Shown here: one piece after another, positions 1-16,614 of the stretch
Position numbering within the stretch: position 1 is the stretch's first letter
How the letters are laid out: each line of letters begins with the position of its first letter
Origin: Endomicrobiales bacterium
Lineage (GTDB): Bacteria > Elusimicrobiota > Endomicrobiia > Endomicrobiales > JAFGGC01
NCBI GenBank assembly: GCA_016930715.1
Contig: JAFGGC010000011.1
Coordinates: 1 to 64,000 of the forward strand
Reading direction: 5' to 3'
DNA: 64,000 nucleotides
Notes under the pieces: model-generated
Database searches by the model: none
Told to the model about the DNA's origin: nothing
Seen by the model: only the letters and a program-made list of their open reading frames with translations
Made by a program: the position numbers and the translations under genes

Positions 1-3000
1 CCGGGTCTGGGTTACCGTGTCGTGAGCCGGCGCGATAAGCGTGGAAACCGCCGGAGGTCCGGTGGTGTCGACAACTACCGTGTATCTTACGGTAGATGTG
101 GTGTAGTTGAGGGCGTTGTCAACGACGTTCACACGCCAGGTGTAGGACGACTGGATGAGAGTTATGTTGGCCGAGTTTAGCTTAGTTGCCGAGGAATACC
201 TTATCGGCACGAAATTCGGAGATGTCGATAATTGAAGGATATAGTTTTTCACTCCCGAGGGAGCGTCTGATACTCCCGTCCAGGAGAACGTTTGTAATTG
301 TGTCTGTGTTATAGTGTCGTGAGCCGGCGCGCTTAGCGTGGAAATTGCCGGAGGGCCGTTAGTATCAACGACAACGGTGTATCTTACGGTCGATGTGGTG
401 TAGTTGAGGGCGTTGTCTATGACGTTTACCCTCCAGGTGTATGAAGACTGGATAAGGCTCAGGGAAGCTGAAGATAAACTTGTAGTTGAAGAATAGCGTA
501 CGGGAACGAAGCTCGCAGAAGTGGAGATCTGAAGTATGTAGTTTTTAACGCCGGCGGGCGAATCCGTCACGGGACCCCAACTGAAGGAAAGGGCCGGTTG
601 ATTGGTCGTAAAATTATGCAGCGGTGCGCTGAGAGTCGCGACGGCGGACGGAGGAGTCGTGTCTATTATCACGCTCCAGGTGGAAGAATATGAACCGTAG
701 TTGCCGGCGTTATCATACGGCCTGACTCTCCAGTAATATACGCCCTGGTTGCTTTGGGGCGGCGTGACGGATGTAAGCGCGGTCTGCGAACTGTACAAAA
801 CCGAACCGAACGAAGGGGTGTCAGAGAATTGGAAAAGATAATCCTTGATTCCCGATCCGCCGGTGTCAACAGAGGCGCTCCACGAGAACTGGGGCGACCT
901 GTTTTGAGTGGATGAGCCATTCGCGGGCAGCGAAAGAACGGGAGCCGGAGGCGTAGAAAGGTCAATGCCGAAGTGGATAGTTGACGGCGTGAAAAAATTA
1001 GCCCAGGACGACCTGCCCGCGTCGCCATAAACCGAAGCCCGCCACTGGTACTGGCCCTGCGCAAGGGTAGTCGAAATGTCGACGGCTATGGGAGTAGCGG
1101 TATAGCTCTGGGCCGTGCCCGTAGTCAGTCCGGCGCCGTCAAAGGATGAAGCATACGGTTTTATTTCTATTACCGGGGTTATCGTGTCGCCGGGATATTT
1201 GGATTTCATGCTGAACTTCAGGTGAACGGCCGGGACGTTCGTGTATGTCCCGGTGGTTATCTGGGTAGTTCCGTCATATCTATACTGGGCAAGGGCCGTA
1301 GGCGAACTTGGCACGGGCAGGTACTCGAAAAGCACTCTGCCGGCCCCGCTGACGTTGAAAGGGTCGGCCGTGAGGGTGTAGTTAGCCGTTGCCGTCGTGC
1401 TGGAAACGCCTATGTGTCCTGTGAATCCCACGAGGGCCGAAGTGAAGAAATTTTCAGTAGTCGACCTGTGGTTCGCGGTCTGGGAGCCGCTTGAGTTGAC
1501 GCTCATCGTCGTGGAAGGGTCCTGAACGACGTTGTTGTCCCCTTCGATGAAATTTCCTATGAGATACGCGTCTCGCAGCGTTTTCCTGCCCACCGGCGTT
1601 TCCGGGTCGGGGAAGAACAGGTCAAAAGCGTAGTTAAAACTCGCCCCCGAGGCGTACTCGTTCGCGCTCTGGCCCGCGAACACGCTGTAATAATCGGTGT
1701 ATTTCCCCTCGCCGGTATACGTGTAGGTCACCCTCAGTTCAGTGCCGATTCCGCCGAGATTGGTATTGTTCGTCCACCTTATGTTGACGGTGGAACCGTT
1801 TATCCAGTAGACGGCGCCTTCTGTCATATCGTGGAACAGTTCAAAACCCGAAGCCTGGGCGGCCTGTGCCAGAAGGGAATAGTCGACCGAGTATCCGCCG
1901 AACAGGTCATTGTCTCTTACTCTTGAATAGACCGGCAAATCGTTCGACGACCAGGTAGAATCGAAAGAGCTATGCATTAAGGCGTATATCCTTTTTATCG
2001 ATATCCCGGTTTCGTTCAGGTAAACAGGAGCCGTAAAATCACCGTCTGAAGTCCCGTCAGACTGGCTGTGGAATATTGAAACGGTCTTTATTTTCGTGTA
2101 AGCCGAAACAGGGAATTCGTAGGTCAGTATTATCTCGCCGCCGAGGCAGTTTATGTTGGCGTTACCGGACGTTATGACATTGAGGGTCTGCAGTGTATTT
2201 GACGCGTAGCCCGAAGGTATGCCCGTCGAGGTCTGATAGAGGAAGCAGTAGGTGTCCCTCATCGCTCCGTCAAAGGTCATTTCAGGCTCATCGCTGTTGC
2301 TGTCAATGCGGCAATACATATAGCCGTCGGCGGTCGTCCAGCCTCCGGACTGCTTCAATCCCCTTATCTCGAACCACACCTGTTTCATTGAGGCGCCCGT
2401 TTCGGGTATTTCGGCGTTGTAGTAGAAGGGGCTCGTGCCGGCCGCTCGCTGCGAAATGTATGAAGCCGTGCCGGATATGCCGTCGCTTGAGTTCGAGAAG
2501 ATCGGGAATTTTACCGTTTTTACCTGCGTGGGCGATTGGTCGTCATAGAGATACGTTATATAAAGCTTAGCGGCGCACATGTTGAAATCCGAGCCTGATA
2601 TCTGGATCCTCATGGAGTAGTTCTGGCTGGACCAGGAGGTTATCTTCGAAGTAACGTCCGCCCTAACGCGCATAGGCTGGGATTCGCCGGAACTGTCCGG
2701 GACCTGGTTGCCCGTTATGTTGTCGACCGTGTCGGTCGGGGATGCCCCCGTGTTGAAATAAATATCTATGTCGGTTGTATCGCTCGCGCTTCCGGCGCTA
2801 TCAAGATAAGATATTTCAAGGTAGGCGTTTTTGATCGGCGATGTCGCTATGGCGTCGGGCAGGTTTATGTATATGTATGGCGGTGTCCAGGTATTGACGT
2901 CGCTTGAGGAATAATACCCGCCGTAGTTCCACTCGACGGTCTTTATTCGTGTCGCCGCGCTGAGGCCATCAGGGGCCACATTGGATAGTAAAAGGAAAAA

Positions 3001-3369
3001 TGCTAAAGGAAAAAGGGCTTTCTTTAACGGCCTTAATATACTAAAAACGATTGACAAGATTGAATTCAAAACCAGTCCATAAAAGCCGTTCAGGTGAGTT
3101 ATGGGCCTGCCTATCATACGTGACGCGTCTACGGTGTATTCTCCGGTAACGGCGGAATCCCCTGAAAGAGTGAATATGAGTTTTTTATCAGCGGAAGTGC
3201 AGATATTGGTGATGCGGTGGATGAATTTTTTCCCTTCGTGCTCGTATAACGCCGTGTCGCCTGGCTTGAAAACCTCGGGCGGTATGGCTTCGACAAAAAG
3301 CGTTTCTCTGCTTTTTATCGACGGCCTCATTGACCCCCCCGTGGTCTTTACGGCGATAATCCTCGTCAT
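1..3369 (-). CDS. Partial giant exported protein: N-terminal S24/S26 signal-peptidase-like domain, hydrophobic segment, long extracellular region ending (in window) in Ig/FN3-like repeats; 3' end beyond window
   Basis: Manual minus-strand translation from ATG at 3369: MTRIIAVKTTGGSMRPSIKSRETLFVEAIPPEVFKPGDTALYEHEGKKFIHRITNI...SGDSAVTGEYTVDASRMIGRPITHLNGFYGLVLNSILSIVFSILRPLKKALFPLAFFLLLSNVAPDGLSAATRIKTVEWNYGG..., continuing in the same frame to position 1 (...VVVDTTGPPAVSTLIAPAHDTVTQT). No in-frame stop found between 3369 and 2941. Absent from ORF track because no stop lies in the window. Confidence 0.85.
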   Translation of the reverse strand, partial: MTRIIAVKTTGGSMRPSIKSRETLFVEAIPPEVFKPGDTALYEHEGKKFIHRITNICTSADKKLIFTLSGDSAVTGEYTVDASRMIGRPITHLNGFYGLVLNSILSIVFSILRPLKKALFPLAFFLLLSNVAPDGLSAATRIKTVEWNYGGYYSSSDVNTWTPPYIYINLPDAIATSPIKNAYLEISYLDSAGSASDTTDIDIYFNTGASPTDTVDNITGNQVPDSSGESQPMRVRADVTSKITSWSSQNYSMRIQISGSDFNMCAAKLYITYLYDDQSPTQVKTVKFPIFSNSSDGISGTASYISQRAAGTSPFYYNAEIPETGASMKQVWFEIRGLKQSGGWTTADGYMYCRIDSNSDEPEMTFDGAMRDTYCFLYQTSTGIPSGYASNTLQTLNVITSGNANINCLGGEIILTYEFPVSAYTKIKTVSIFHSQSDGTSDGDFTAPVYLNETGISIKRIYALMHSSFDSTWSSNDLPVYSRVRDNDLFGGYSVDYSLLAQAAQASGFELFHDMTEGAVYWINGSTVNIRWTNNTNLGGIGTELRVTYTYTGEGKYTDYYSVFAGQSANEYASGASFNYAFDLFFPDPETPVGRKTLRDAYLIGNFIEGDNNVVQDPSTTMSVNSSGSQTANHRSTTENFFTSALVGFTGHIGVSSTTATANYTLTADPFNVSGAGRVLFEYLPVPSSPTALAQYRYDGTTQITTGTYTNVPAVHLKFSMKSKYPGDTITPVIEIKPYASSFDGAGLTTGTAQSYTATPIAVDISTTLAQGQYQWRASVYGDAGRSSWANFFTPSTIHFGIDLSTPPAPVLSLPANGSSTQNRSPQFSWSASVDTGGSGIKDYLFQFSDTPSFGSVLYSSQTALTSVTPPQSNQGVYYWRVRPYDNAGNYGSYSSTWSVIIDTTPPSAVATLSAPLHNFTTNQPALSFSWGPVTDSPAGVKNYILQISTSASFVPVRYSSTTSLSSASLSLIQSSYTWRVNVIDNALNYTTSTVRYTVVVDTNGPPAISTLSAPAHDTITQTQLQTFSWTGVSDAPSGVKNYILQLSTSPNFVPIRYSSATKLNSANITLIQSSYTWRVNVVDNALNYTTSTVRYTVVVDTTGPPAVSTLIAPAHDTVTQTR
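17..907 (-). repeat. Tandem ~297-bp (99 aa) Ig/FN3-like domain repeats
   Basis: gtgtcgtgagccggcgcg recurs at 17 and 314 (297-bp period), with a more diverged third unit from ~611; both near copies encode SSYTWRVNV(V/I)DNALNYTTSTVRYTVVVDT(T/N)GPPA. Confidence 0.85.
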
Positions 3370-3407: not shown

Positions 3408-3554
3408 CTATGAAAGGCGCTTTTTTGCCTGGCAGACCTGCTGATATACAGGCCCGGACATGAAGCATTTACCGCAGGCAAGCGCCGCCGTTTCAATCAC
3501 TTTTTCGGATTTAAAATCGGGTTTCTGATAGGGTTTTTTGGTTTTTTTAGCCAT
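3408..3554 (-). CDS. 48-aa candidate RiPP precursor peptide: MAKKTKKPYQKPDFKSEKVIETAALACGKCFMSGPVYQQVCQAKKRLS
   Basis: Within the 103-aa ORF 3408..3719, internal ATG at 3554 has an AAGGA Shine-Dalgarno 7 nt upstream and a promoter just before it; Cys-containing C-terminal core; adjacent to radical SAM/SPASM and PqqD-like genes. Confidence 0.75.
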   Translation of the reverse strand: MAKKTKKPYQKPDFKSEKVIETAALACGKCFMSGPVYQQVCQAKKRLS

Positions 3555-3581
3555 GGCCGTATCCTTTCGTTTGACGCTATA

Positions 3582-3610
3582 ATTATAACTGAAAAAACAA
3601 GTATTTTCAA
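3582..3610 (-). promoter_or_regulatory. Sigma70-type promoter for the peptide gene: TTGAAA-N17-TATAAT
   Basis: Reverse complement reads TTGAAA(3610-3605) ATACTTGTTTTTTCAGT (17 nt) TATAAT(3587-3582). Confidence 0.75.
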
Positions 3611-3781
3611 TAGAACAAACAGCACATTTTTCAGGGTAAAAAGCGTGAAAACAACCGGTTTGCCGGGAAATCTTGCCGAAAGACATTTTCCGTCGGAAAA
3701 AAGACTTAAACGGGTTCAAAAACGGCTCAAGCTCGCCGTGTTTTAAGCGATGTGCCTTTTGTCACATCGAATGAATTGAAT

Positions 3782-4789
3782 CTAATTCATTTTTTTATGG
3801 ATTTTCGCTATCTGGCAGGCGATTTTTGAAGGCCCGAAAAGGCTTCCGTCCTCCAGTTTAGCTATGCCGGGGCATCTCTGGCACAGGTATGCCATATCGC
3901 ACGAATTGCAGACGGCTATGTCTTTGTTGGAAATGCTTCTGTAGCCGGCAAGGACCTTGTTTTTTTGCGACCAGATCCTGTCGAGTTTTTGGTGTTTGAT
4001 GTTTCCCAGGGGCAGCGCGAGCTGCAGGCAGGGATAGACAGTTCCGTCGGAGATTATGGATATCACGTTCCTTCCGGCGCTGCAGGAAAGATCGTCAAGG
4101 CGCCTTCTTGCGGGAGCCTCAGGGGGTTTTTCGCCCAGTTCGCGGTATATATTTGTTAACTGCCTATTGTTCATCCTGTACTTCAGTATTTCCTGGTTTC
4201 CCGAGTCCGCCGGGGCAATCGTAGGGTCGAACTTGAAGTTTATCCCGCTTTTTTTTGCGAATTTCCTGATCCAGCCGCGCTCTGAGTAGTTGAGGTTCGT
4301 TAAAGGACACTTTATTGTAACATTGATGCCGTGTTTTTTGAGCATTTCTACCGAGCGTATGCTCTTTTCGAACGCGCCCTTCCTGCCGGTAATGCCGTCG
4401 TGGACATTTTCGCGTCCGTAAAGGCTTATCTCGACTCCGCTGATGGATATTTTTGACAGTTCCTCGGCGTCATTTTTTGAAATTTGCGTGCCGTTCGTGA
4501 AGAGCTTCAGGTCAAAATTCAGTTTTTTCGCGTACCTGCAGAGCTCGAGCAGGTCTTTTCTCAGAAAGATTTCCCCGCCCGTGAAAACGAGCATCAATGT
4601 CCCCATTCTTGAAAGTTGTTTCAGGGAATTCTTGATTTCTCCCGTAGACAGTTCGGAACGCACGTCGGGCGGGACGTCAATATAGCAATGCCTGCATCTC
4701 AGGTTGCACCTGCGGGTCAGCTCGAAAGTGCAGATCAGAGGTATGTATTTTGAATCCGTTATCCTGAAAAGGTTGGCCTGTGGTTTCAT
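3782..4789 (-). CDS. Radical SAM/SPASM-type peptide maturase
   Basis: CNLRCRHC (CxxxCxxC), N-terminal SAM core, C-terminal Cys-rich region CSAGRN...YPC...CNSCDMAYLCQRCPG...C. Confidence 0.85.
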   Translation of the reverse strand: MKPQANLFRITDSKYIPLICTFELTRRCNLRCRHCYIDVPPDVRSELSTGEIKNSLKQLSRMGTLMLVFTGGEIFLRKDLLELCRYAKKLNFDLKLFTNGTQISKNDAEELSKISISGVEISLYGRENVHDGITGRKGAFEKSIRSVEMLKKHGINVTIKCPLTNLNYSERGWIRKFAKKSGINFKFDPTIAPADSGNQEILKYRMNNRQLTNIYRELGEKPPEAPARRRLDDLSCSAGRNVISIISDGTVYPCLQLALPLGNIKHQKLDRIWSQKNKVLAGYRSISNKDIAVCNSCDMAYLCQRCPGIAKLEDGSLFGPSKIACQIAKIHKKMN

Positions 4790-5052
4790 TGCCGCTTATT
4801 TTCAATCATACCCGCTTTTGAAAGCCTGTCGACGAAATTCATTATGTCCTTTCTTGCCGTTCTATCGCATATGGAATACTCGCGGACCGTTCTTTTTACC
4901 ATTTCTTCAATGTCGGTGCCCTTGTTTATCATTTCCCAAAGGAATGTCCCTGGTTCGTTCAGTTCGTGGAGGGTTGAAGTAGCGGCCTCTATCACGAACG
5001 CCCGGCCTTCTATTTTTCTCCAGGCAATGCTCGGGGCCTTCTTAATTCTCAT
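4786..5052 (-). CDS. PqqD-like (RRE-type) protein
   Basis: 88 aa, LNEPGTFLWEMINKGTDIEEMVKRTVREYSI...DIMNFVDRLSKAGMI pattern; 4-nt overlap with radical SAM gene. Confidence 0.8.
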   Translation of the reverse strand: MRIKKAPSIAWRKIEGRAFVIEAATSTLHELNEPGTFLWEMINKGTDIEEMVKRTVREYSICDRTARKDIMNFVDRLSKAGMIENKRQ

Positions 5053-5881
5053 TTTCTGCCTCCGTTAAGATTTCAATTATAGATTTTCTGGAAGCGTCTT
5101 TTCTAAGGTGCAGGTCATATCCTCTGATATTTTGCGATGAGAGCCGCGCAAATGAAAGCACGGATTCCATATATTTCGCGTCTTTAAGAAAAAAAAGCGT
5201 GTTTTTAAGCAGTTTTCTGAAAAATGAGTCAGGTTTCAGCTTGTTTATTCCGTTGTATGTTGATTTTTGAGGAAAAAATGCAGCCGAAACACTTTTTACC
5301 CCTCTTTTTTTGTTTTTTCTTTTCAATTCCCCCCAAAAAGGCGAATAGCATGAGTAAAAACAACCCTTATTAGCAAAAAGAGGCGAGAGTTCGTCACTCA
5401 ATGCGTTTTTAGCTCCGAGTTTTCTGATTATTGTTGATTTTCCGGAGCCGCTAACGGCAGGGAACAATACCGCGCTTCCGTCAAAAACAACACCCGAAGA
5501 ATGCAAAAGAATCATTCTCTTTCTCGCACCAATGAGAGTAATGAAAATCCTTAGCCAGGAATCGAAGGAGTATATGTTATTCTCTATTTCGAGGTATGTT
5601 TCCGAAAAACCTCTATCCGAAACCGAATTGAAATCGCTTCGTGTTATACGGACGCCATTCTTATCGATATTGACATCGGGTTCATCGTCGAGATTTTTAA
5701 ATGAACGATTATTCACGATGACCCTGCGAGAAGAAAATGTTATCGATTCCGAAAAATGAGGATAATAGTGATTTTTGATTCTTTTAAAAAAGGAATTGTC
5801 GGCAAAATGGAATTTCAAGGACACGTTGCCAAGAGAAAAAAGGGCGGTATAACCCATCCTATTCAAATGCCCCTTACCCAC
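5042..5881 (-). CDS. HPr kinase-like P-loop protein
   Basis: HSSGVVFDGSAVLFPAVSGSGKSTIIRKLG Walker A in HprK-like context; overlaps PqqD-like gene. Confidence 0.75.
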   Translation of the reverse strand: MGKGHLNRMGYTALFSLGNVSLKFHFADNSFFKRIKNHYYPHFSESITFSSRRVIVNNRSFKNLDDEPDVNIDKNGVRITRSDFNSVSDRGFSETYLEIENNIYSFDSWLRIFITLIGARKRMILLHSSGVVFDGSAVLFPAVSGSGKSTIIRKLGAKNALSDELSPLFANKGCFYSCYSPFWGELKRKNKKRGVKSVSAAFFPQKSTYNGINKLKPDSFFRKLLKNTLFFLKDAKYMESVLSFARLSSQNIRGYDLHLRKDASRKSIIEILTEAENEN

Positions 5882-6975
5882 CAGCGGGCGGCTTTGAGCT
5901 CAAGCATCAGTTTTTTATCAGCGAGGTCAAGCTTTGTTTCGTCTATTGCTTCCTTTATGAATATCATAGGCGTTGAAGACAGGTTAACGGTTTTAATCTC
6001 TGAAAGTCTTTTGTTCTCCGCCGAGACTATTACCTTAACCTTTGGGCGCGTGGGCAGGCCGGTGTTCAAACCGGTAACCTTCGCTATTTCATCGGTATTG
6101 AGTCGGACGTAGCTTCCAGGCGGGTACAACGATAAGGAGTCGATGAAGACCTTTATTATCCTGTTGTCGAATTCCTGATCAGAGCCGGTTATCATCGTCT
6201 TGAGCGCGTCGTGCGGAAGAAGCCTGTCGCGGTGCGTCCTCGGATGGGTGAGGGCCTCGTAAACGTCCGCGACAGCGATGATCTTGGCGAATTCGTGGAT
6301 GTCGGCCCCGGCCACTGAGTTCGAGCGGAATCCGTCGGAAAAATTGTTCTGCTTCTGGACCATAACGTCAAGTATAAGTGTCTTGACGTCTTCGGCAAAT
6401 TCGGTCATGTGCTGAACAATCTCCTGCCCGGTGACCGGATGTTTTTTGAGCATCGAAAGTTCGGATTCGGTCAGTTTTTCCTTTTTCGAGGCAAGGTTCA
6501 GGTACTTCGACATGCCGATATCGTTAAGGATGGCGCAGAATCCCAGGCTGAGGAGTTTTTCTTTCGGAAGCATCAGGGATTTGCCGAGAAAAACGGAAAA
6601 AATACAGGTATTGACGCAATGCCCGTAGAGGTATATGTCAGGGGTTGCCCTGTCAGCAAGAATAAGTATCTCGTCGTTGTTGGCCGAAATAAGATCAATA
6701 ATTTCTTCGACGCACTCGATCTTTCCGGTAAAAGGAGCATTTTTTTCCGAAAGATTGATTACATTCTTGATCTCAATGATAGCTTTGGAATAGGTATCTT
6801 CGGCTTTTAATACAGGGGTGCGTTTTTCAGAAGCAATTTCCTCCTTTTTCATTGCTTCCTTGATGGTAATTCTATCTTCCTGAGGGACTTTTTGCTGTAT
6901 TTTAGGAGGGGCTTCCGGTTTCGGAGGTTGAGACTGTGGTTGCGAAGCCTTTTTAAGTATGTCGGTTAAACGCAT
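5863..6975 (-). CDS. HD-GYP-like domain protein with degenerate catalytic motifs
   Basis: Overall HD-GYP layout (KKHPVTGQEIV, IIAVADVYEALTHPRTHR) but HD is ND (LNDIGM) and HHExxDGxGYP is QNNFSDGFRS. Confidence 0.75.
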   Translation of the reverse strand: MRLTDILKKASQPQSQPPKPEAPPKIQQKVPQEDRITIKEAMKKEEIASEKRTPVLKAEDTYSKAIIEIKNVINLSEKNAPFTGKIECVEEIIDLISANNDEILILADRATPDIYLYGHCVNTCIFSVFLGKSLMLPKEKLLSLGFCAILNDIGMSKYLNLASKKEKLTESELSMLKKHPVTGQEIVQHMTEFAEDVKTLILDVMVQKQNNFSDGFRSNSVAGADIHEFAKIIAVADVYEALTHPRTHRDRLLPHDALKTMITGSDQEFDNRIIKVFIDSLSLYPPGSYVRLNTDEIAKVTGLNTGLPTRPKVKVIVSAENKRLSEIKTVNLSSTPMIFIKEAIDETKLDLADKKLMLELKAARWWVRGI

Positions 6976-7000
6976 TATTATCCTTTTAAGTGTCAGGCCG

Positions 7001-7092
7001 GAATCTTCGATTCCCGGTTTCGCGACTTGCCTTATGTCTTCTCCAGGTACTAGATGCCAGTTACCAGATACTGCTTTTATGAGCGGGCGATG
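7001..7092. repeat. 92-bp direct repeat, copy 1 (includes 11 bp of tRNA-Gly 3' end)
   Basis: gaatcttcgattcccggtttcgcgacttGccttatg...gcttttatgagcgggcgatg; identical to 7183-7274 apart from one G/A difference. Confidence 0.95.
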
Positions 7093-7182
7093 CCCCCTTT
7101 CGGGGACTCCCTCGCCGAAGCTCGGTCGGCTTCTTTCATAGAACTTTACGGAATCAGCACTTCCTCGCCGAAGCTCGGTCGA

Positions 7183-7274
7183 GAATCTTCGATTCCCGGT
7201 TTCGCGACTTACCTTATGTCTTCTCCAGGTACTAGATGCCAGTTACCAGATACTGCTTTTATGAGCGGGCGATG
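7183..7274. repeat. 92-bp direct repeat, copy 2 (overlaps the real tRNA-Gly 3' end)
   Basis: Direct comparison with 7001-7092, 182-bp offset. Confidence 0.95.
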
Positions 7275-7334
7275 GGAATCGAACCCACATCTCTTGCTTG
7301 GGAAGCAAGGGTTTTACCACTAGACTACGCCCGC
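7264..7334 (-). tRNA. tRNA-Gly(UCC), no encoded CCA
   Basis: GCGGGCGTAGTCTAGTGGTAAAACCCTTGCTTCCCAAGCAAGAGATGTGGGTTCGATTCCCATCGCCCGCT folds as a cloverleaf; anticodon loop TTCCCAA. Confidence 0.95.
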
Positions 7335-8882: not shown

Positions 8883-9644
8883 TTAGAATACCGGTACCGA
8901 CGAAATAAGTTTCATGGTGTAAAGAGTCTCTGGCGCTTTAATGACGTTCTCGGGTTCCCCTTCTTCAACTACCCTTCCTTTCTGCATTACGACGATACGG
9001 TCGGCGATGCAGCTTGCGACGACAATGTCGTGAGTTATGAAAACGAAAGAAAGAGATTTTTCTTTTTTCAGTTCTATGAATATGTTCAATAACTGGTTCT
9101 GTATGGAAATATCAAGAGAAGAAAGCGGCTCGTCAGCGACGATTATGCCGGGGTTTTTTATCAATGCCCTGGCTATCGCGATCCTCTGCCTTTGGCCGCC
9201 GGAAAACTGATGGGGATAAAGATTCAGAGCGCCTTCCGAGAGCCCAACCCTCTCAAGAGTATGTTTAAGGATTAAGCGGCTGTTATCTTCGTTTTCAGGC
9301 AGGGCTTCGGACAGGATAGTGCCGACCTTGAGCTTGGGATTCAAAGAAGCGTAGGGATTCTGAAATATCATCTGCACTTTTTCGGACATTGACTTGCGCT
9401 GTAGGTTAGAGATATTGGCAGTATCTATTTCTATCGATCCGGTATCCGCTTTCAAGAGTCCGCAGATGAGCTTGCCAAGCGTAGTTTTCCCGCTTCCTGA
9501 CTCGCCGACGACAGCCGTGACGGAGCCTTTTGAAGCAGAAAGCGAGACATTATCGACAGCTAATACCTTTTCCGTTACGCCACCGAAAAATCCGCGAGAA
9601 GTGACAAAAGTCTTTGAAACGTTTTTGAGTTCGAGTATCATCAT
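8883..9644 (-). CDS. Oligo/dipeptide ABC transporter ATP-binding protein (OppF/DppF type)
   Basis: Walker A GESGSGKTT, signature FSGGQRQRIAIARAL, Walker B IIVADEP. Confidence 0.92.
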   Translation of the reverse strand: MMILELKNVSKTFVTSRGFFGGVTEKVLAVDNVSLSASKGSVTAVVGESGSGKTTLGKLICGLLKADTGSIEIDTANISNLQRKSMSEKVQMIFQNPYASLNPKLKVGTILSEALPENEDNSRLILKHTLERVGLSEGALNLYPHQFSGGQRQRIAIARALIKNPGIIVADEPLSSLDISIQNQLLNIFIELKKEKSLSFVFITHDIVVASCIADRIVVMQKGRVVEEGEPENVIKAPETLYTMKLISSVPVF

Positions 9645-9645
9645 A

Positions 9646-10605
9646 TCAGCCCTTTTTAGAATACAAAAAGCATCTCACTTTTATGCTGCCGGAGGGCAAT
9701 AAAGACGGTTTTTCATTTCTGCAGATGTCCATCGCTCTAGGGCATCTCGGAGCGAAAGCGCATCCCGGAGGCAGATCGTTCATGTCAGGGGGGTGCCCGG
9801 ACAGTGAAGAAGTTTTCACGCATTCGAACATCCTGGGAACGGAAGCGATAAGCCCCCTTGTGTATGGGTGAAGAGGTTTTTTCAGTACCTCCTCCGTCCC
9901 GCCGGTTTCGACTATCTGTCCCGCGTACATCACGGCGATAGAGTCGCTTCTCTGTTTGGCGAGCGGCAGGTTGTGGGTCACGAGCACGATCGTAAGGCCG
10001 AGGGAATGCTTCAAATCGTCAATAAGGTCCATTATTTCCTTCTGTATCGTAACGTCGAGTGCCGTAGTGGGTTCGTCGGCTATGAGAACCTTCGGGCGGT
10101 TGACGATGGCGATCGCCAGCGCGACTCTCTGTCTTTGGCCGCCGGATATCTGGTGCGGATATGAATTGAATATCCTTTCAGGTTCAGAAAAAAGAACCTC
10201 TTCCAGCGATTTAATGGCAGCTTTTTTGGCTTCGTATTTACCGATGCCAGCGTCGTGCGCCAATATGGCTTCGGTTATCTGAACGCCGATTTTAAGAACC
10301 GGATTCAGCGACGAGAACGGGTCCTGGAACACCATTGAGATTTCTTTTCCCCTGATCCTGCGCCATTCGGCGGATCCTCCGGTGATTATGTCCTTGCCGC
10401 CGTAAGATACTTCGCCCGCTGTTATGCGGCCTTCATCGGGCAGTATAAGACCGAGTATCGACATCGCGAGCGTGCTCTTGCCGCAGCCGGATTCCCCGAC
10501 GACCGCGAGAGTTTTTCCCTTTTCAAGTTCAACGGAAACCCCGCGAACGGCTTCAAGGGCAGGATGATAAGTGACTGAAAGGTCTTTGACCGAAATAACG
10601 CTCAT
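9646..10605 (-). CDS. Oligo/dipeptide ABC transporter ATP-binding protein (OppD/DppD type)
   Basis: GESGCGKST, ISGGQRQRVALAIAI, C-terminal CAFAPRCPRAMDIC typical of OppD/DppD. Confidence 0.93.
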   Translation of the reverse strand: MSVISVKDLSVTYHPALEAVRGVSVELEKGKTLAVVGESGCGKSTLAMSILGLILPDEGRITAGEVSYGGKDIITGGSAEWRRIRGKEISMVFQDPFSSLNPVLKIGVQITEAILAHDAGIGKYEAKKAAIKSLEEVLFSEPERIFNSYPHQISGGQRQRVALAIAIVNRPKVLIADEPTTALDVTIQKEIMDLIDDLKHSLGLTIVLVTHNLPLAKQRSDSIAVMYAGQIVETGGTEEVLKKPLHPYTRGLIASVPRMFECVKTSSLSGHPPDMNDLPPGCAFAPRCPRAMDICRNEKPSLLPSGSIKVRCFLYSKKG

Positions 10606-11444
10606 GTTTTCCTTTTAAGTAGTCTTGGGTCCAGGATGTCCCTCAGGCCCTCGCCGAGAAGGTTGAAAGCGAGCACGGTGAACAGTATCGCGAGCCCCGG
10701 AAAAAGCGAAAGCCACCAGGCGACGTATATGTATTCTTTTCCCGCGGTCAGCATTTGTCCCCAAGAGGGCACCGGCGGCTGAACGCCAAGGCCAAGGAAC
10801 GAAAGCCCGGACTCGGTGAGTATGGCGTCGCCAACCCCGAGCGTCGCCGCAACGAGTATGGGCGAAACGACGTTCGGAAGAAGGTGGATGAAAAAAATCC
10901 TGAAATTCGAAATGCCGAGGAGCCGGGCCGCCTGTATGAACTCCCTTTCCTTGAGGGACAATACCTCTGCGCGGACCAGGCGCGTCAGGCCGGGCCAGGA
11001 AGTCAGCCCTATGACCACCATCACGTTATATATGTTCGGTTCAAGAAACGCTATTACTATCAGTATCAGGAAAAACGAAGGAAAACAAAGCATTATGTCC
11101 ACGAGCCTCATTATAACGGTGTCTATTTTTCCCCCGAAGAAACCGCTTATCATCCCGAGCAGGGTCCCAATCAGCACGGATATGCCGACGGCGACGAACC
11201 CGACCGAAAGGGAGATCCTTATGCCGTAGAGCATTCTTGAAAACACGTCCCTGCCCAGGTCGTCGGTACCGAGGAGATGCTTCAGCGAAGGCGGGTTGAG
11301 CCTAGATCCGAGGTTCTGCTCGAAAGTGCCGTAGGGCGATAACACCTGAGACAACAGGGCAAGCAGAAAAAGCACGGCGATGACCGTGAGGCCATAAAAA
11401 ACAAGCCTGTTTTCCTTGAGGGCGTTGAAGGCTCTTTTTATCAT
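10602..11444 (-). CDS. Peptide ABC transporter permease (DppC/OppC type)
   Basis: [26 protein letters not shown] and C-terminal [14 protein letters not shown]. Confidence 0.93.
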
Positions 11445-12412
11445 TTGTACCTTATCCTCGGATCGGCCCAGGTATACGTCAGGTCAGCGAGCAGGTTGCC
11501 GAGTAACGTAAGAACGGCGGCGATAGTGCCAACCGCCATAATGACCGGGTAATCCCTGGACATTATGGCCTCGTATCCGAGACGGCCCATTCCCGGATAG
11601 GCGAATATCGTTTCGAATATGAATCCCCCGCCTATCATAGAAGGCAGCGAAAGCCCGAGTATCGTGACGACCGGAAGAAGCGCGTTTCGCGCCGCGTGTT
11701 TCAGGATAACGGCGCTTTCCGGCAGGCCCTTGGCGTAAGCCGTTTTAATGTAGTCCTGTTTTATCACTTCAAGCATGCTTGAACGGGAGTATCGAGAAAG
11801 GCCCGCCAGCCCCGTGAAACCGGTGATTAACACGGGCAGCGCCAGGTGCCTGGCAAGATCAATGGTTTTTCCTAACAAATTCATTTCTGCGTAATTGAGC
11901 GAATGGAGGCCCGATATGGGCAGAAGCCCCATTTTAAGCCCGAACAGTATCATCAGAAGCAGCGCGAGCCAGAAGGTCGGCATCGAGAATCCGATAAACA
12001 CGAAAACAGTCATTGCCTTGTCGAAAAACGTCCTGTGCCTTATCGCCGAATAAATGCCTATCGGAAGGGCTACTGCCAGTATGAGGCCGAGCGAAAGAAA
12101 GTTCAAAAGCAATGTCGCGGGCAGTCTTTCAAGGATTTTTTTAATCGCCGGACGGCCGTCTTTGAACGAATTCCCGAAATCCAGCGCCGAAAGCCTTTTT
12201 ATCCAATTGAAATACTGCACGTACCACGGCCGGTCAAGGCCGTATAAAGCCGCGAGGCGCAGCTTGGCTTCTTGAGTTATCTTGGCGTTCATATCGGTGA
12301 CGGCGTCTGTTGGTTTGCCCGGGGACAGATGCATGACCAGGAACGTTATGACCGTTATCCCTATGACCACGGGAATGAAATGAATCAAGCGCTTAAGGGT
12401 ATAGCCGAGCAT
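11441..12412 (-). CDS. Peptide ABC transporter permease (DppB/OppB type)
   Basis: [55 protein letters not shown]; start chosen at internal Met 12412, overlapping upstream stop. Confidence 0.92.
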
Positions 12413-14031
12413 CAATATCTCTCCAGAACGTATTTCTGATTGCTTTTTGACACCCACCACTTATGGAAATTCCAGCCCAGGCCGGCAGGCGCGACCTCCG
12501 GGCCGATAAAGCGTTTGTGTATTACCGGAAGTGACTCCGGGTAGTAGAGAAAAACGTAGGGAATGTCGCCTGCCAGTATCCTGTGAACCTTGTTGTATAT
12601 GTTTTTCCGCTTTTTAACGTCGAACGTCCTTCTGCCCTCGATCAGGAGCTTGTCGATCTCGCCGTTCGAGTAGGAAATGAAGTTGTACTGGCCTTCGCCG
12701 GTCTGGCCCGAATGCCATATCAGGTACTGGTCAGGGTCGCGCGAAAGGCTCCAGCCGAGTATTATAGCGTCGAAATTCTTCTTGTCCACGAACTGGTGTA
12801 TGAAGGAGCTCCATTCTATTATCCTGATGTTGATCTTTATGCCTACTTTTCTGAGCTGCGCCTGGAGTATTTCCGCCGTCAGTGACCTTAACTTGTTGCC
12901 CTGGTTGGTTATGACGGTGAACTCGAGAGGTTTGCCGTCCTTTTTAAGAATGTCGTCTTTTCCGCGGCGCGACCAGCCGAGCCCTGTCAGGATCTTTTCG
13001 GCTTTTTCGGGGTCGTATGCGTGGTCTTTCACCGCGTCGTCATACGCCCACGAACTGGGAGGGTACGGGCCAGTGGCAGGACGGCCCATACCGAGGAGAA
13101 CGCCGTCGATGATTTCCTTCTTGTCAATGGCGTGGGCGATCGCCTGCCTGAACCTTTTATCTGCAAAAAGCGGCTTTTTGAGATTGAAAGCGAGGTACGT
13201 GTATGAAAACGACGGGTAACGGAACTTGTTATAGGCCCTGAAGAATTCAGGGTAAGCCTTCCATTGGTCCGGCGTCAACCCCATTTCATCTATGCTCTGG
13301 TTCCTTAGCTCAAGGAACTGCACCGCCTGGTCGGGTATGATGCGGTAATAATACCTGTCGATATACGGACGACCTTCGAAATAGTCGGGATTCGCCTCAA
13401 GGACTATTTTTTCGTCTGTTTTCCACTCCCTGAACCTGAACGGCCCGGTTCCAACCGGGCTTCGGTTGGCCGGATTGGAGTTGAAATCTCCCCGTCTGAA
13501 AACGTGTTTCGGCAATATTCCCATCATCCAGGATTCTATGGCCGGGGCGAACGGCTCCTTGTAGGTTATTTCCACCGTGTGCCGATCGATGACCCTGAAA
13601 TTCTTGACGAGCATATAGTCGGATCCGTACGGCGTTCGGACGTCCGGGTCGACGAGCTTTCTGAAAGTGAACTCGACATCATCGGCCGTGAAAGGCCTGC
13701 CGTCGTGCCACTTCACGCCTTTCCTTAGGTAGAACGTTATTTTAAGCCCGTCCTTTGATATCTTCCAGCTTTCGGCCAGCGATGGTGCGACATTAATGTC
13801 CTTGTCGTACTTCACGAGGCCGTTATAGACGAGCCCGTTTATGTCTCCTGAGGCCGAGTCAGTCGCGAGTATGGGGTTGAGGTACGAGGCGTCGCCTATT
13901 GAGGATGCCACGTATACGTCGCCGTGTTCGGGTTCTCCCGCGGCTTTGATTTTAGAATAGTCCCCTGTTTTGGAACACGACAAAAAGCCAATTAGGGGCA
14001 ATACGGCGAAGAAAAACAATTTATTTTTCAT
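12412..14031 (-). CDS. Peptide-binding lipoprotein (SBP family 5)
   Basis: [19 protein letters not shown] lipobox; [39 protein letters not shown]. Confidence 0.92.
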
Positions 14032-14032
14032 C

Positions 14033-15322
14033 TTATTCGGGGATGCATTCAACCTGAAGAGGCCTTTCGCCGAAAACCATATTTGCCGCGTTCTTTAGGT
14101 CGCCGGGAGTAAGTTTCGACAATACCCTCATGTATTCGTCGTCATAAGCGTATCCCTTGCCCATAATTTCCCACCAGCCGCAGTACCACGCCTGCTTGGA
14201 TACCGTCTGGTGGTCCATGAGATAAACGCCTTTCACGTATTTTTTTGTTTCGTCAAGTTCCTTTTTTTCAATAGGTTTTTGCTTTATTTCTTCAATAATT
14301 TCGTAAATGCGTTTTTTGGCTTTTTCAGTGTTCTTTTTGTCCAAACCCATGTAGACAACGAACCTGCTCGTGCAGGTCCTTGTGGGATAAAAGGAACTCA
14401 CCTCGTAAGCAAGGCCCATCTCTTCCCTCAGTTCCATAAATAGCTTTCCGGTCATCCTTCCGCCCAGGTATGAGTTAAGGAGTTTTAACGGGGCAAACGA
14501 ATGATCGTGTATTTCCGGAGACGGGTAACCTATCATTATGAACGCCTGATTGAATTTTTTGTTCCTCTGCACGTGTTCGCCGGCGTAAGTTCCGCCACCT
14601 TTGGTCATTTTAGCGCCGCCTTTCGTTGCGGCGATAATACCGAAGTATTTTTCAGCGGATTTCCTGGCCGTTTCAAAGTCTATGTCTCCGAAAATTACGA
14701 CAATCATCCCGTCGGAGGTGTAATGCTCCTTGTGCCACTTTAAGATGTCGTCCCTTTTGATTTTTGAGATTGTTTCCTTTTTTCCGGTTTCCGGCCAGGA
14801 ATATGGGTTTTCGGGGCCGTAGAATTTTTCAAGAAAGAGATCGTTGGCGGAGTTAAAAATGCGGTCTTTCCTCGCTTCAAGCGACGCAAGTATGTTGTAT
14901 CTTTCCTTTTCAATTTCATCGTTTTCGAATGCCGGGTTCGTGAGGATATCTGAAAGCAAACTACACGCTTTATCGAAGTTTTCGGACAGAAGAGTGATGC
15001 CCGCGTAGGAGTAGTCGTAAGCGATATCTGAGGCAACGTTGCCTCCGATGCTCTCGATCTCTTCGGATAATTTCGCGGCGTCCATGCTGGTTGTCCCCTG
15101 GAAAAGGAGCATGTGGGTGAAATATGATATTCCGGCGTTTGATTTTTCTTCGTAACCTATGCCCGTTTTAAAAAATACCTGCACCGTGGCAAGGGGTGCA
15201 GTTTTTATTTCCCTGTGAATGAGCTTTGAGCCGTTTGACAGTAAGGATTCGTTCACTTTGCCTCCGCAATATGATATTGAAGCAGCGAAAAATAAAAGAA
15301 ACAGCGCTATCGATATCTTCAT
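14033..15322 (-). CDS. M16-family protein lacking the zinc motif (inactive partner subunit)
   Basis: Motif position reads GISYFTHMLLFQGT rather than HxxEH. Confidence 0.85.
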   Translation of the reverse strand: MKISIALFLLFFAASISYCGGKVNESLLSNGSKLIHREIKTAPLATVQVFFKTGIGYEEKSNAGISYFTHMLLFQGTTSMDAAKLSEEIESIGGNVASDIAYDYSYAGITLLSENFDKACSLLSDILTNPAFENDEIEKERYNILASLEARKDRIFNSANDLFLEKFYGPENPYSWPETGKKETISKIKRDDILKWHKEHYTSDGMIVVIFGDIDFETARKSAEKYFGIIAATKGGAKMTKGGGTYAGEHVQRNKKFNQAFIMIGYPSPEIHDHSFAPLKLLNSYLGGRMTGKLFMELREEMGLAYEVSSFYPTRTCTSRFVVYMGLDKKNTEKAKKRIYEIIEEIKQKPIEKKELDETKKYVKGVYLMDHQTVSKQAWYCGWWEIMGKGYAYDDEYMRVLSKLTPGDLKNAANMVFGERPLQVECIPE

Positions 15323-16614
15323 TTTTTTGGTTCCAATAATGCCGCGTAGATGAAGTCCTTATCGTAATACTTCCTGAAAAAACCGATAATATCTTTCTTT
15401 TCAACATTGAGTATCTTTTCAAGGTATTTTTCGGCTATCTCCGGCCTTCCCTGCATGTGCCAGTAACCCTGGGAAGCGCCCTGTTCGTGGCAGGTCTCCT
15501 GAGAAACGTACCACTGGGATTTCGCCATTGCCCTTGCCCTGTTCAATTCGGTTTCCGTGGGGCCGTTTGCGGCGAAATCATTCAGTATTTCAGCGATAGC
15601 GTCTAAAACCTTTTTACGGTTTGAGGGTTCGTATACTCCGCTGACGGCGAAGATACCCGCTCCGCGCTGAGACCAGAACGAAGCGTTGATCTCATAGACG
15701 AGCTTCTTCTCCTCGCGCAGTATCCTGTAAAACCTTGAAGATTTTCCTCCTCCGAGAATGGCAGACGCGAGGTCACCCGCGAACTGGTCGTCGGATTCGA
15801 CCGATGGCCCGAGAAAGCCGTAAATCAGGTATTCCTGGGCCACGTTCTTGGATTTGACCGAGGTACCGCCTTTTTTAGGGTTCTTTTCAGAAAGTTCGGG
15901 CTCTTTTGGCGCGGGCCGTTCCGCCTGCTTTCCGAACGTGGACCTCACGGTCTCGGTCATCTCTTTCGCGTTGAAATCGCCTGTTATGCTCACGAACATT
16001 TTTTCCGGAACGTAATTATCGTGATAATACCTGGCGATTTCTTCCCTCGTGACGTTTTCCACGACCTCTGAGCTGCCTATTATGCTGGATCTGTAAGGCG
16101 ACGCCGCGTAGGCGGTCTCGTTGAACAAGTCGTAGAGAACGGAGCCGGGGTTGTCATCGTGCCTCTTTATCTCCTCAAGCACCACGAGCCGTTCCTTCTC
16201 AATCTCGTCAGCCGGAAAAACTGCGTTCGCCATGGCGTCGGCCAGTATCTCCACCGCCTCTTTAGCGCCGTCTTTCTGTATGTCTATGTAGAACTCGGTG
16301 TATTCCTTGGACGTCGCCGCGTTTATCATACCGCCGTTTATTTCCACCCTTCTTGCTATTTCCTGGCCGGGGTATTTTTCCGTGCCCTTGAATATCAGGT
16401 GTTCGAGAAAATGCGACAGGCCGGAGGTTTCGGCCGTTTCGTTTACCGAGCCGACCTTTACCCAGACCTGAACGGAAACTACCGGTTTTTCGTGGTTTTC
16501 CTTCAATATTACTGTTAATCCGTTGTCAAGTATCAATTTTTTCACTCCTTTCGCGCAGTGAGCGCTCGAGAACGCAAGTGCCAGAAGCAATGAAACAGTC
16601 AATAATCTTTTCAT
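15319..16614 (-). CDS. M16-family zinc metallopeptidase
   Basis: SGLSHFLEHLIFKGTEKYPG (HxxEH) plus downstream E motif. Confidence 0.92.
   Translation of the reverse strand: MKRLLTVSLLLALAFSSAHCAKGVKKLILDNGLTVILKENHEKPVVSVQVWVKVGSVNETAETSGLSHFLEHLIFKGTEKYPGQEIARRVEINGGMINAATSKEYTEFYIDIQKDGAKEAVEILADAMANAVFPADEIEKERLVVLEEIKRHDDNPGSVLYDLFNETAYAASPYRSSIIGSSEVVENVTREEIARYYHDNYVPEKMFVSITGDFNAKEMTETVRSTFGKQAERPAPKEPELSEKNPKKGGTSVKSKNVAQEYLIYGFLGPSVESDDQFAGDLASAILGGGKSSRFYRILREEKKLVYEINASFWSQRGAGIFAVSGVYEPSNRKKVLDAIAEILNDFAANGPTETELNRARAMAKSQWYVSQETCHEQGASQGYWHMQGRPEIAEKYLEKILNVEKKDIIGFFRKYYDKDFIYAALLEPKK

Follow-up and report, generated by a model that had tools for sequence, protein, structure and literature searches.

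Located at the start of contig JAFGGC010000011.1 from an Endomicrobiales bacterium (assembly GCA_016930715.1; the window is the whole analysed stretch of 64,000 nucleotides, positions 1 to 64,000 of the contig) is a minus-strand gene cassette that probably encodes a pathway for a ribosomally synthesised and post-translationally modified peptide (RiPP). The pathway would combine the toolbox of the linear polyphosphorylated peptides (LPPs), namely a RiPP recognition element (RRE), an HprK-like kinase and an archaeal-type signal peptidase, with a radical S-adenosylmethionine (SAM) maturase. The cassette takes up the first 7 kb of the window, in a genome of 2.3 Mb and 45 contigs, and the RiPP-like character proposed for it in an earlier sequence-only reading is supported by a conserved gene set: the small peptide, the RRE, the kinase and the radical SAM gene recur in dozens of loci, with homologous peptides beside homologous radical SAM genes. 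The features of the cassette are as follows.

5863..6975, minus strand: HD-GYP-like protein of 370 aa, with degenerate catalytic motifs in the window; an optional neighbour (Pfam HD_5, 1.7e-18)
5042..5881, minus strand: HprK/PEPCK-fold (phosphoenolpyruvate carboxykinase) putative kinase of 279 aa, with a GTG start, H127, a GSGKST P-loop at 145-150 and S162-D163-E164
4786..5052, minus strand: PqqD-like RRE (leader-binding) protein of 88 aa (Pfam PqqD, 1e-12)
3782..4789, minus strand: radical SAM/SPASM maturase of 335 aa (Pfam Radical_SAM, 9.5e-24; SPASM, 1.3e-10)
3582..3610, minus strand: promoter-like site TTGAAA-N17-TATAAT upstream of the peptide, matching at 11 of 12 positions
3408..3554, minus strand: precursor peptide of 48 aa, a conserved family
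3513..3530, minus strand: YQKPDF in the leader, a lasso/LPP-type RRE-binding motif YxxPx[LVIF] (motif as defined in PMC13381572 and PMC10368454)
3411..3476, minus strand: predicted core, residues 27-48 (CGKC, C41 and the C-terminal S48), assuming a cut after A26, with a cut after T22 as the alternative
3055..3369, minus strand: SIGP, an S26B-like (archaeal/SipW-type) signal peptidase domain, the N-terminal part of a fused protein (sigpep_I_arch, 1.4e-6)
1..3054, minus strand: SURF, a giant secreted surface protein with a signal peptide, a conserved 'ATRIKTVEWNYGGYYS' head and immunoglobulin-like repeats (Big_13, 6.5e-9)

All five of the same-strand genes that had been read as an overlapping operon are present, with overlaps of 19 nt (HD-GYP and HprK-like), 11 nt (HprK-like and PqqD-like) and 4 nt (PqqD-like and radical SAM); the peptide itself lies outside these overlaps, downstream of the radical SAM gene across a 227-nt gap. 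Its promoter-like site lies 27 nt before the ATG, and similar sites (10-11 of 12 matches, spacer of 17) stand ahead of the peptide gene in four order-level relatives (L023-L026), because of which peptide, SIGP and SURF probably constitute a second transcription unit. The C-terminus of SURF is missing, as the contig start cuts the gene off.

The 48-residue reading frame is not a chance one: it is conserved across the phylum, and its differences among 16 relatives (0.15, 0.14 and 0.50 at the first, second and third codon positions) show that the peptide is under purifying selection. Seven residues (Y9, P12, E21, A24, L25, C27 and, at the very end, S48) are shared without exception by 25 sequences from three phyla, S48 being the sole core hydroxyl residue kept throughout these phyla. 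The Elusimicrobiota precursors also always have K29 and C30, and nearly always C41. The C-terminal Ser, a feature absent from the sequence-only reading, closes all 79 distinct precursors of relatives in addition to the peptide of the window, and small residues occupy positions -3 and -1 relative to the first Cys of the core in 76 of these 79. The leader follows the consensus YxKPx[IVF]xSEK[IV][FI]E, with Ser, Thr, His or Tyr at position 16, and thus carries the YxxPx[LVIF] motif by which RREs recognise lasso and LPP leaders (PMC13381572; PMC10368454). Neither Pfam nor NCBIfam holds a family covering the precursor. A weak match to the peptide on contig C23 of the same genome was discarded as unrelated, being a Cys-rich membrane protein with ferredoxin-like motifs.

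Further support comes from the distribution of the system. The order HD-GYP, kinase, RRE, radical SAM, peptide, SIGP and SURF recurs among twenty neighbourhoods, and a second order (kinase, RRE, peptide, SIGP, radical SAM) is also found, many of these loci being labelled Elusimicrobia or Elusimicrobiales. Scanning GTDB contigs with an alignment of the peptide returned 48 loci, nearly all from Elusimicrobiota, with two from Acidobacteriota and one from Planctomycetota. In whole-genome searches, 57 of the 345 Elusimicrobiota genomes, spread over 27 of 101 genera, had the precursor, and the large family f6 contributed none of these matches. The precursor was also detected in Planctomycetota (11 genomes out of 300) and Acidobacteriota (15 out of 297), the weakest of these latter matches (E near 1e-4) being unsure.

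The kinase, present in 22 of 151 genomes comprising the window's own and 150 relatives, is found in every one of the 57 precursor-bearing Elusimicrobiota genomes (Fisher 1e-53; this and all other co-inheritance statistics ignore phylogeny), and another 12 Elusimicrobiota genomes gave a kinase match but no precursor, most of these matches being weak or the genomes incomplete. In a sample of 201 Planctomycetota genomes, taken to be nested within the sample of 300, the seven with a kinase match below 1e-30 are the same seven that carry the precursor, and the two genes are mostly unlinked there, lying far apart in several of the seven. The kinase was likewise present in all seven genomes checked separately, five of which had been chosen for precursors located away from the enzymes and three of which also belong to the Planctomycetota sample. 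Separation of the cassette is seen too in one genome (G085) whose enzymes (L030) and peptide-SIGP-SURF unit (L100) are on different contigs, and some precursors lack a kinase gene in their vicinity. Next to the G087 cassette, a 281-aa gene was considered as a missing kinase and rejected, since it does not match the kinase profile.

The enzyme assignments made earlier were confirmed for the radical SAM/SPASM and PqqD-like proteins by the Pfam matches given above, and upheld for the kinase by its predicted structure. The sequence match of the kinase is weak (NCBIfam HprK_rel_A, 2.3e-5), and a sequence search of the kinase and SURF against the PDB gave nothing useful. An AlphaFold2 model of the kinase built from 29 related sequences (predicted local distance difference test score, pLDDT, 92.9) matches PEP carboxykinases (1e-7) and HprK (8e-4) in Foldseek; the modelled protein has the PEPCK/HprK fold, that expected of HprK-type kinases. 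H127, G147, K148, D163 and E164 are kept in 51 of 52 aligned homologues, the motif reading DE in place of DD. The RRE matches the solved structures TbiB1 and LppB (9x8z at E 0.013), with N32, D69 and F73 falling opposite N33, D70 and F74 of LppB, the residues that hold the leader Tyr and Pro; judged by this alignment, the RRE keeps the leader-binding residues of LppB, D69 being found in 53 of 53 homologues and N32 in 45 of 53. The radical SAM protein carries CNLRCRHC together with C236, C254, C294, C297, C303, C306 and C325, these Cys residues being conserved among homologues, and has SkfB and PqqE as its nearest solved structures, so that the CX3CX2C motif and SPASM cysteines expected of a radical SAM/SPASM RiPP enzyme stand beside a precursor and an RRE.

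Only in part does the claim of a degenerate HD-GYP protein in the operon hold. The protein is degenerate in the window (ND in place of HD, and no HHExxxxGYP) and in two order-level relatives, but its motifs are largely intact in most of the 16 sequences aligned; with that, and as it was not found in the Elusimicrobiales cassettes, it was rejected as a core component and is an optional neighbour.

The giant peptidase-fused surface protein, which the sequence-only reading could not place, does exist as a fusion of SIGP and SURF in the window and in two relatives (L023 and L026), and its peptidase part can now be explained: most relatives encode SIGP in a gene of its own, and it is similar to the LPP leader peptidase (PMC13381572). 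Relatives of SIGP match archaeal-type signal peptidase I, SipW and the maturation protease of nickel superoxide dismutase. The catalytic positions are Ser13, His51 and Asp71, with H51 in 46 of 46 homologues, D71 in 44, and S13 in 39, the other seven having Cys13. These Cys-type proteins bear a GGCMRP motif and keep His and Asp (L031, L033, L036, L038 and L039 of family f8, as well as L090 and L094), and the change from Ser to Cys may have arisen more than once, as L094 comes from a distant family. By hydropathy, SIGP is without a clear transmembrane helix at its N-terminus and is probably cytosolic. At L027:14157-16871, SIGP is joined instead to a different secreted protein, one with BNR/sortilin repeats and a FlgD-like end; this fusion is an independent one.

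From the observed gene content, conservation, co-inheritance, folds and motifs, we infer the following steps and their order. The PqqD-like RRE would bind the leader and present the precursor to a set of three enzymes. Of these, the radical SAM/SPASM maturase would modify the Cys-containing core, most likely by a crosslink, and the HprK-like kinase would phosphorylate the C-terminal Ser48. SIGP would remove the leader either after A26, where A-L-A before the Cys fits the small-residue pattern, or after T22, an LPP-like site ending in FET. The expected product is a modified peptide of 22-26 residues with a C-terminal phosphoserine, made together with the giant secreted SURF encoded in the same unit. 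Phosphorylation of Ser48 is predicted because, as experiments have shown for several lasso peptides, HprK-like kinases can act on the C-terminal Ser of the precursor (PMC10368454), and the invariant Ser is thus the likely target. The assignment of SIGP as leader peptidase is drawn from its matching Ser/Cys13, His51 and Asp71 and from the precedent of LppS, an archaeal-type signal peptidase I (SpI; S29-H68-D93) shown by experiment to remove the LPP leader with the help of the RRE; according to the same paper, no RiPP pathway had previously been known to use such a peptidase (PMC13381572), and a review of RiPP leader proteases makes no mention of them.

Several observations weigh against this proposal. 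No product of the pathway is known, and no conserved dedicated exporter accompanies the cassette. The kinase and the RRE score far below every NCBIfam cut-off, their function resting on fold and motifs. The exchange of the catalytic Ser for Cys in seven of the 46 SIGPs counts here too, as do the three of 79 precursors that break the small-residue rule at -3 and -1. A Planctomycetota locus with six precursors lacks an adjacent kinase, three kinase relatives lying elsewhere in that genome. Moreover, two of the characterised HprK-like RiPP kinases, BsfK and LppK, phosphorylate Ser3 and not the C-terminus (PMC13381572, PMC10368454). This last point, together with the precursors that have no kinase gene nearby, would suit a reading in which the same RiPP machinery operates while the kinase acts on a leader hydroxyl or on another protein such as SURF, the Ser being retained for recognition by the maturase or by the target of the product. 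Such a kinase target is unlikely, given that Ser48 is the only invariant core hydroxyl across three phyla, that leader position 16 varies, and that the kinase tracks the precursor even when unlinked.

It could also be argued that SIGP processes SURF, as signal peptidases normally cut secreted proteins and SIGP is fused to SURF in three loci and to a BNR-repeat protein in another, the leader then being removed by a different protease or never. This is rather doubtful: besides the precedent of LppS as a proven leader peptidase (PMC13381572), SIGP has no clear N-terminal transmembrane helix and is kept in Acidobacteriota and Planctomycetota cassettes where no SURF head was found. A reading without any RiPP, in which the 48-aa chain acts, without modification, as a small metal-binding or regulatory protein beside neighbours unrelated in role, would draw on the capacity of CxxC...C to hold a metal or an Fe-S cluster and on the fact that no product has been isolated; with a YxxP leader motif matched by the RRE residues, a co-inherited kinase and a complete radical SAM/SPASM enzyme conservedly adjacent, it is highly improbable. 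A RiPP pathway with leader removal by SIGP and phosphorylation of Ser48 therefore remains the favoured account, and the product it predicts is specific and easy to test for: a modified peptide whose C-terminal residue is phosphoserine.

The role of such a peptide may be connected with SURF, one of the largest predicted bacterial surface proteins, whose putative tie to a RiPP offers a handle on what such RiPPs do in the cell. Of 344 Elusimicrobiota genomes, 26 have the SURF head family; the precursor is present in 24 of these 26, with SURF and precursor on different contigs in several genomes (G228, G229, G116, G225 and G114). SURF open frames reach 10,482 aa. The head is modelled as all-beta (pLDDT 85), and comparison of this model with the PDB yielded no specific match (TM-score at most 0.25). 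In all four relatives in which the C-terminus of SURF was read, it ends in a PQQ_2/BamB-type propeller, and in three of these four the next gene encodes another propeller protein, which bears a sorting tail of the secretion type. In Acidobacteriota, the precursor at one locus (L092) is followed by a pair of proteins that each combine a CBM96 domain with a propeller at the C-terminus, and a close homologue occurs at L095; in the Planctomycetota genome G390, two stand-alone precursors are each near a propeller protein. Propeller neighbours are not found at all loci, and propellers are common in these phyla. The proximity of some precursors in three phyla to such proteins hints that the peptide serves propeller-bearing secreted proteins, and is best taken as a lead only. 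A bolder idea, that the mature phosphopeptide, made ribosomally, would serve giant secreted proteins with beta-propellers as a ligand or prosthetic group in parallel to pyrroloquinoline quinone (PQQ) and PQQ-type propellers, draws on this proximity to PQQ_2/BamB-type propellers and on the co-inheritance of SURF even when unlinked; we consider it decidedly unlikely.

Other observations concern the surroundings of the cassette and related loci. Upstream of it and on the same strand (window 8883-16614) are genes for an oligopeptide ATP-binding cassette importer (SBP_bac_5, two permeases and two ATPases) and two M16 peptidases, and gene lengths suggest similar neighbours in L024-L026; peptide import and PqqF-type M16 peptidases could be relevant to the cassette. 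A near-exact direct repeat (gaatcttcgattcccggtttcgcgact to tatgagcgggcgatg) lies at about 7000-7090 and 7180-7270 of the window, adjoined by a minus-strand tRNA gene at 7264-7334. The six tandem precursors of the Planctomycetota locus (L093:7756-9181) are accompanied by one radical SAM gene and one RRE, with neither kinase nor SIGP beside them. The window's own genome also holds a second PqqD-rich cluster (L108; contig C1, 2-17 kb), in which no precursor was recognised. It comprises a pair of stand-alone genes for PqqD-like proteins, a GT2 glycosyltransferase with a fused PqqD domain, a SPASM-type radical SAM protein and at least three radical SAM proteins that bind B12, along with a FliG-like neighbour.

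Among known systems, several share parts of this design. Lasso peptides with HprK-like kinases (paeninodin type; PMC10368454) have in common the RRE (B1), a YxxPxL leader and a kinase for the C-terminal Ser. They differ in that neither a lasso cyclase C nor a B2 peptidase was found near the cassette, where a radical SAM enzyme stands instead; membership was rejected, the window's own genome having no match to PF13471 (the B2 transglutaminase-like peptidase) over the cut-off and the cyclase not being found in the window neighbours scanned with Pfam, the sole place searched. The SynChlorMet cassette (NCBIfam ScmC-F) brings together an HprK-like protein (ScmC, which is related to HprK), a PqqD-like protein (ScmD) and radical SAM/SPASM proteins, but two of the latter (ScmE and ScmF) against a single gene here, and the matches are weak; membership was rejected at 108.6 of 400 bits for ScmE, 14.8 of 125 for ScmC and 17.6 of 100 for ScmD. 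With the sactipeptide and ranthipeptide maturases (SkfB, AlbA, StsB and PapB) the system shares a SPASM radical SAM enzyme and a Cys-bearing core, SkfB being the closest solved structure, and the equivalog scores of the window's radical SAM protein are far below cut-off. To our knowledge, a kinase and an SpI peptidase are no part of those systems. Their thioether crosslinks to core Cys, a type of modification with which the sequence-only reading found the window peptide consistent, are one candidate for the predicted crosslink. RRE-Finder and the 2025 RRE paper mention neither kinases nor these phyla.

Closest are the LPPs of Bacillota (Nat Commun 2026, PMC13381572), which likewise have a discrete YxxP-binding RRE, an HprK-like kinase and an SpI (SipW-like) Ser-His-Asp peptidase, with a YxxP...FET leader resembling that of the window peptide. 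The counterparts found here are an RRE with the YxxP-binding residues (LppB N33 and D70), a kinase with the PEPCK/HprK fold and conserved motif and, by presence and residues, a putative SpI-type peptidase with Ser-His-Asp. The LPP leader YxxPxVLxHQxIxFETxxS with core Ser3 is not reproduced: YxxP and [FI]E[TQ] are present, the spacing is off by 2 and no conserved Ser matches. LPPs also have a transporter and a nucleoside triphosphate (NTP) transferase, phosphorylation at Ser3 and highly variable C-termini (PMC13381572), whereas the window system has a radical SAM/SPASM maturase, a conserved Cys core, an invariant C-terminal Ser, a SURF partner and a home in other phyla. The MsbA-like transporter and NTP transferase are absent from the window cassette and the scanned neighbours; a DUF2204-like NTP transferase was seen in L036. 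The main text of the LPP paper, which describes LPPs as confined to Bacillota, contains neither the word 'radical' nor the names of the phyla treated here (PMC13381572); no radical SAM maturase is reported for LPPs. Overall, this is, in the literature covered, a previously unnamed peptide-modification system, whose precursors may have been noticed earlier elsewhere, and it extends the toolbox of RRE, HprK and signal peptidase from Bacillota to at least three other phyla and joins it to radical SAM chemistry.

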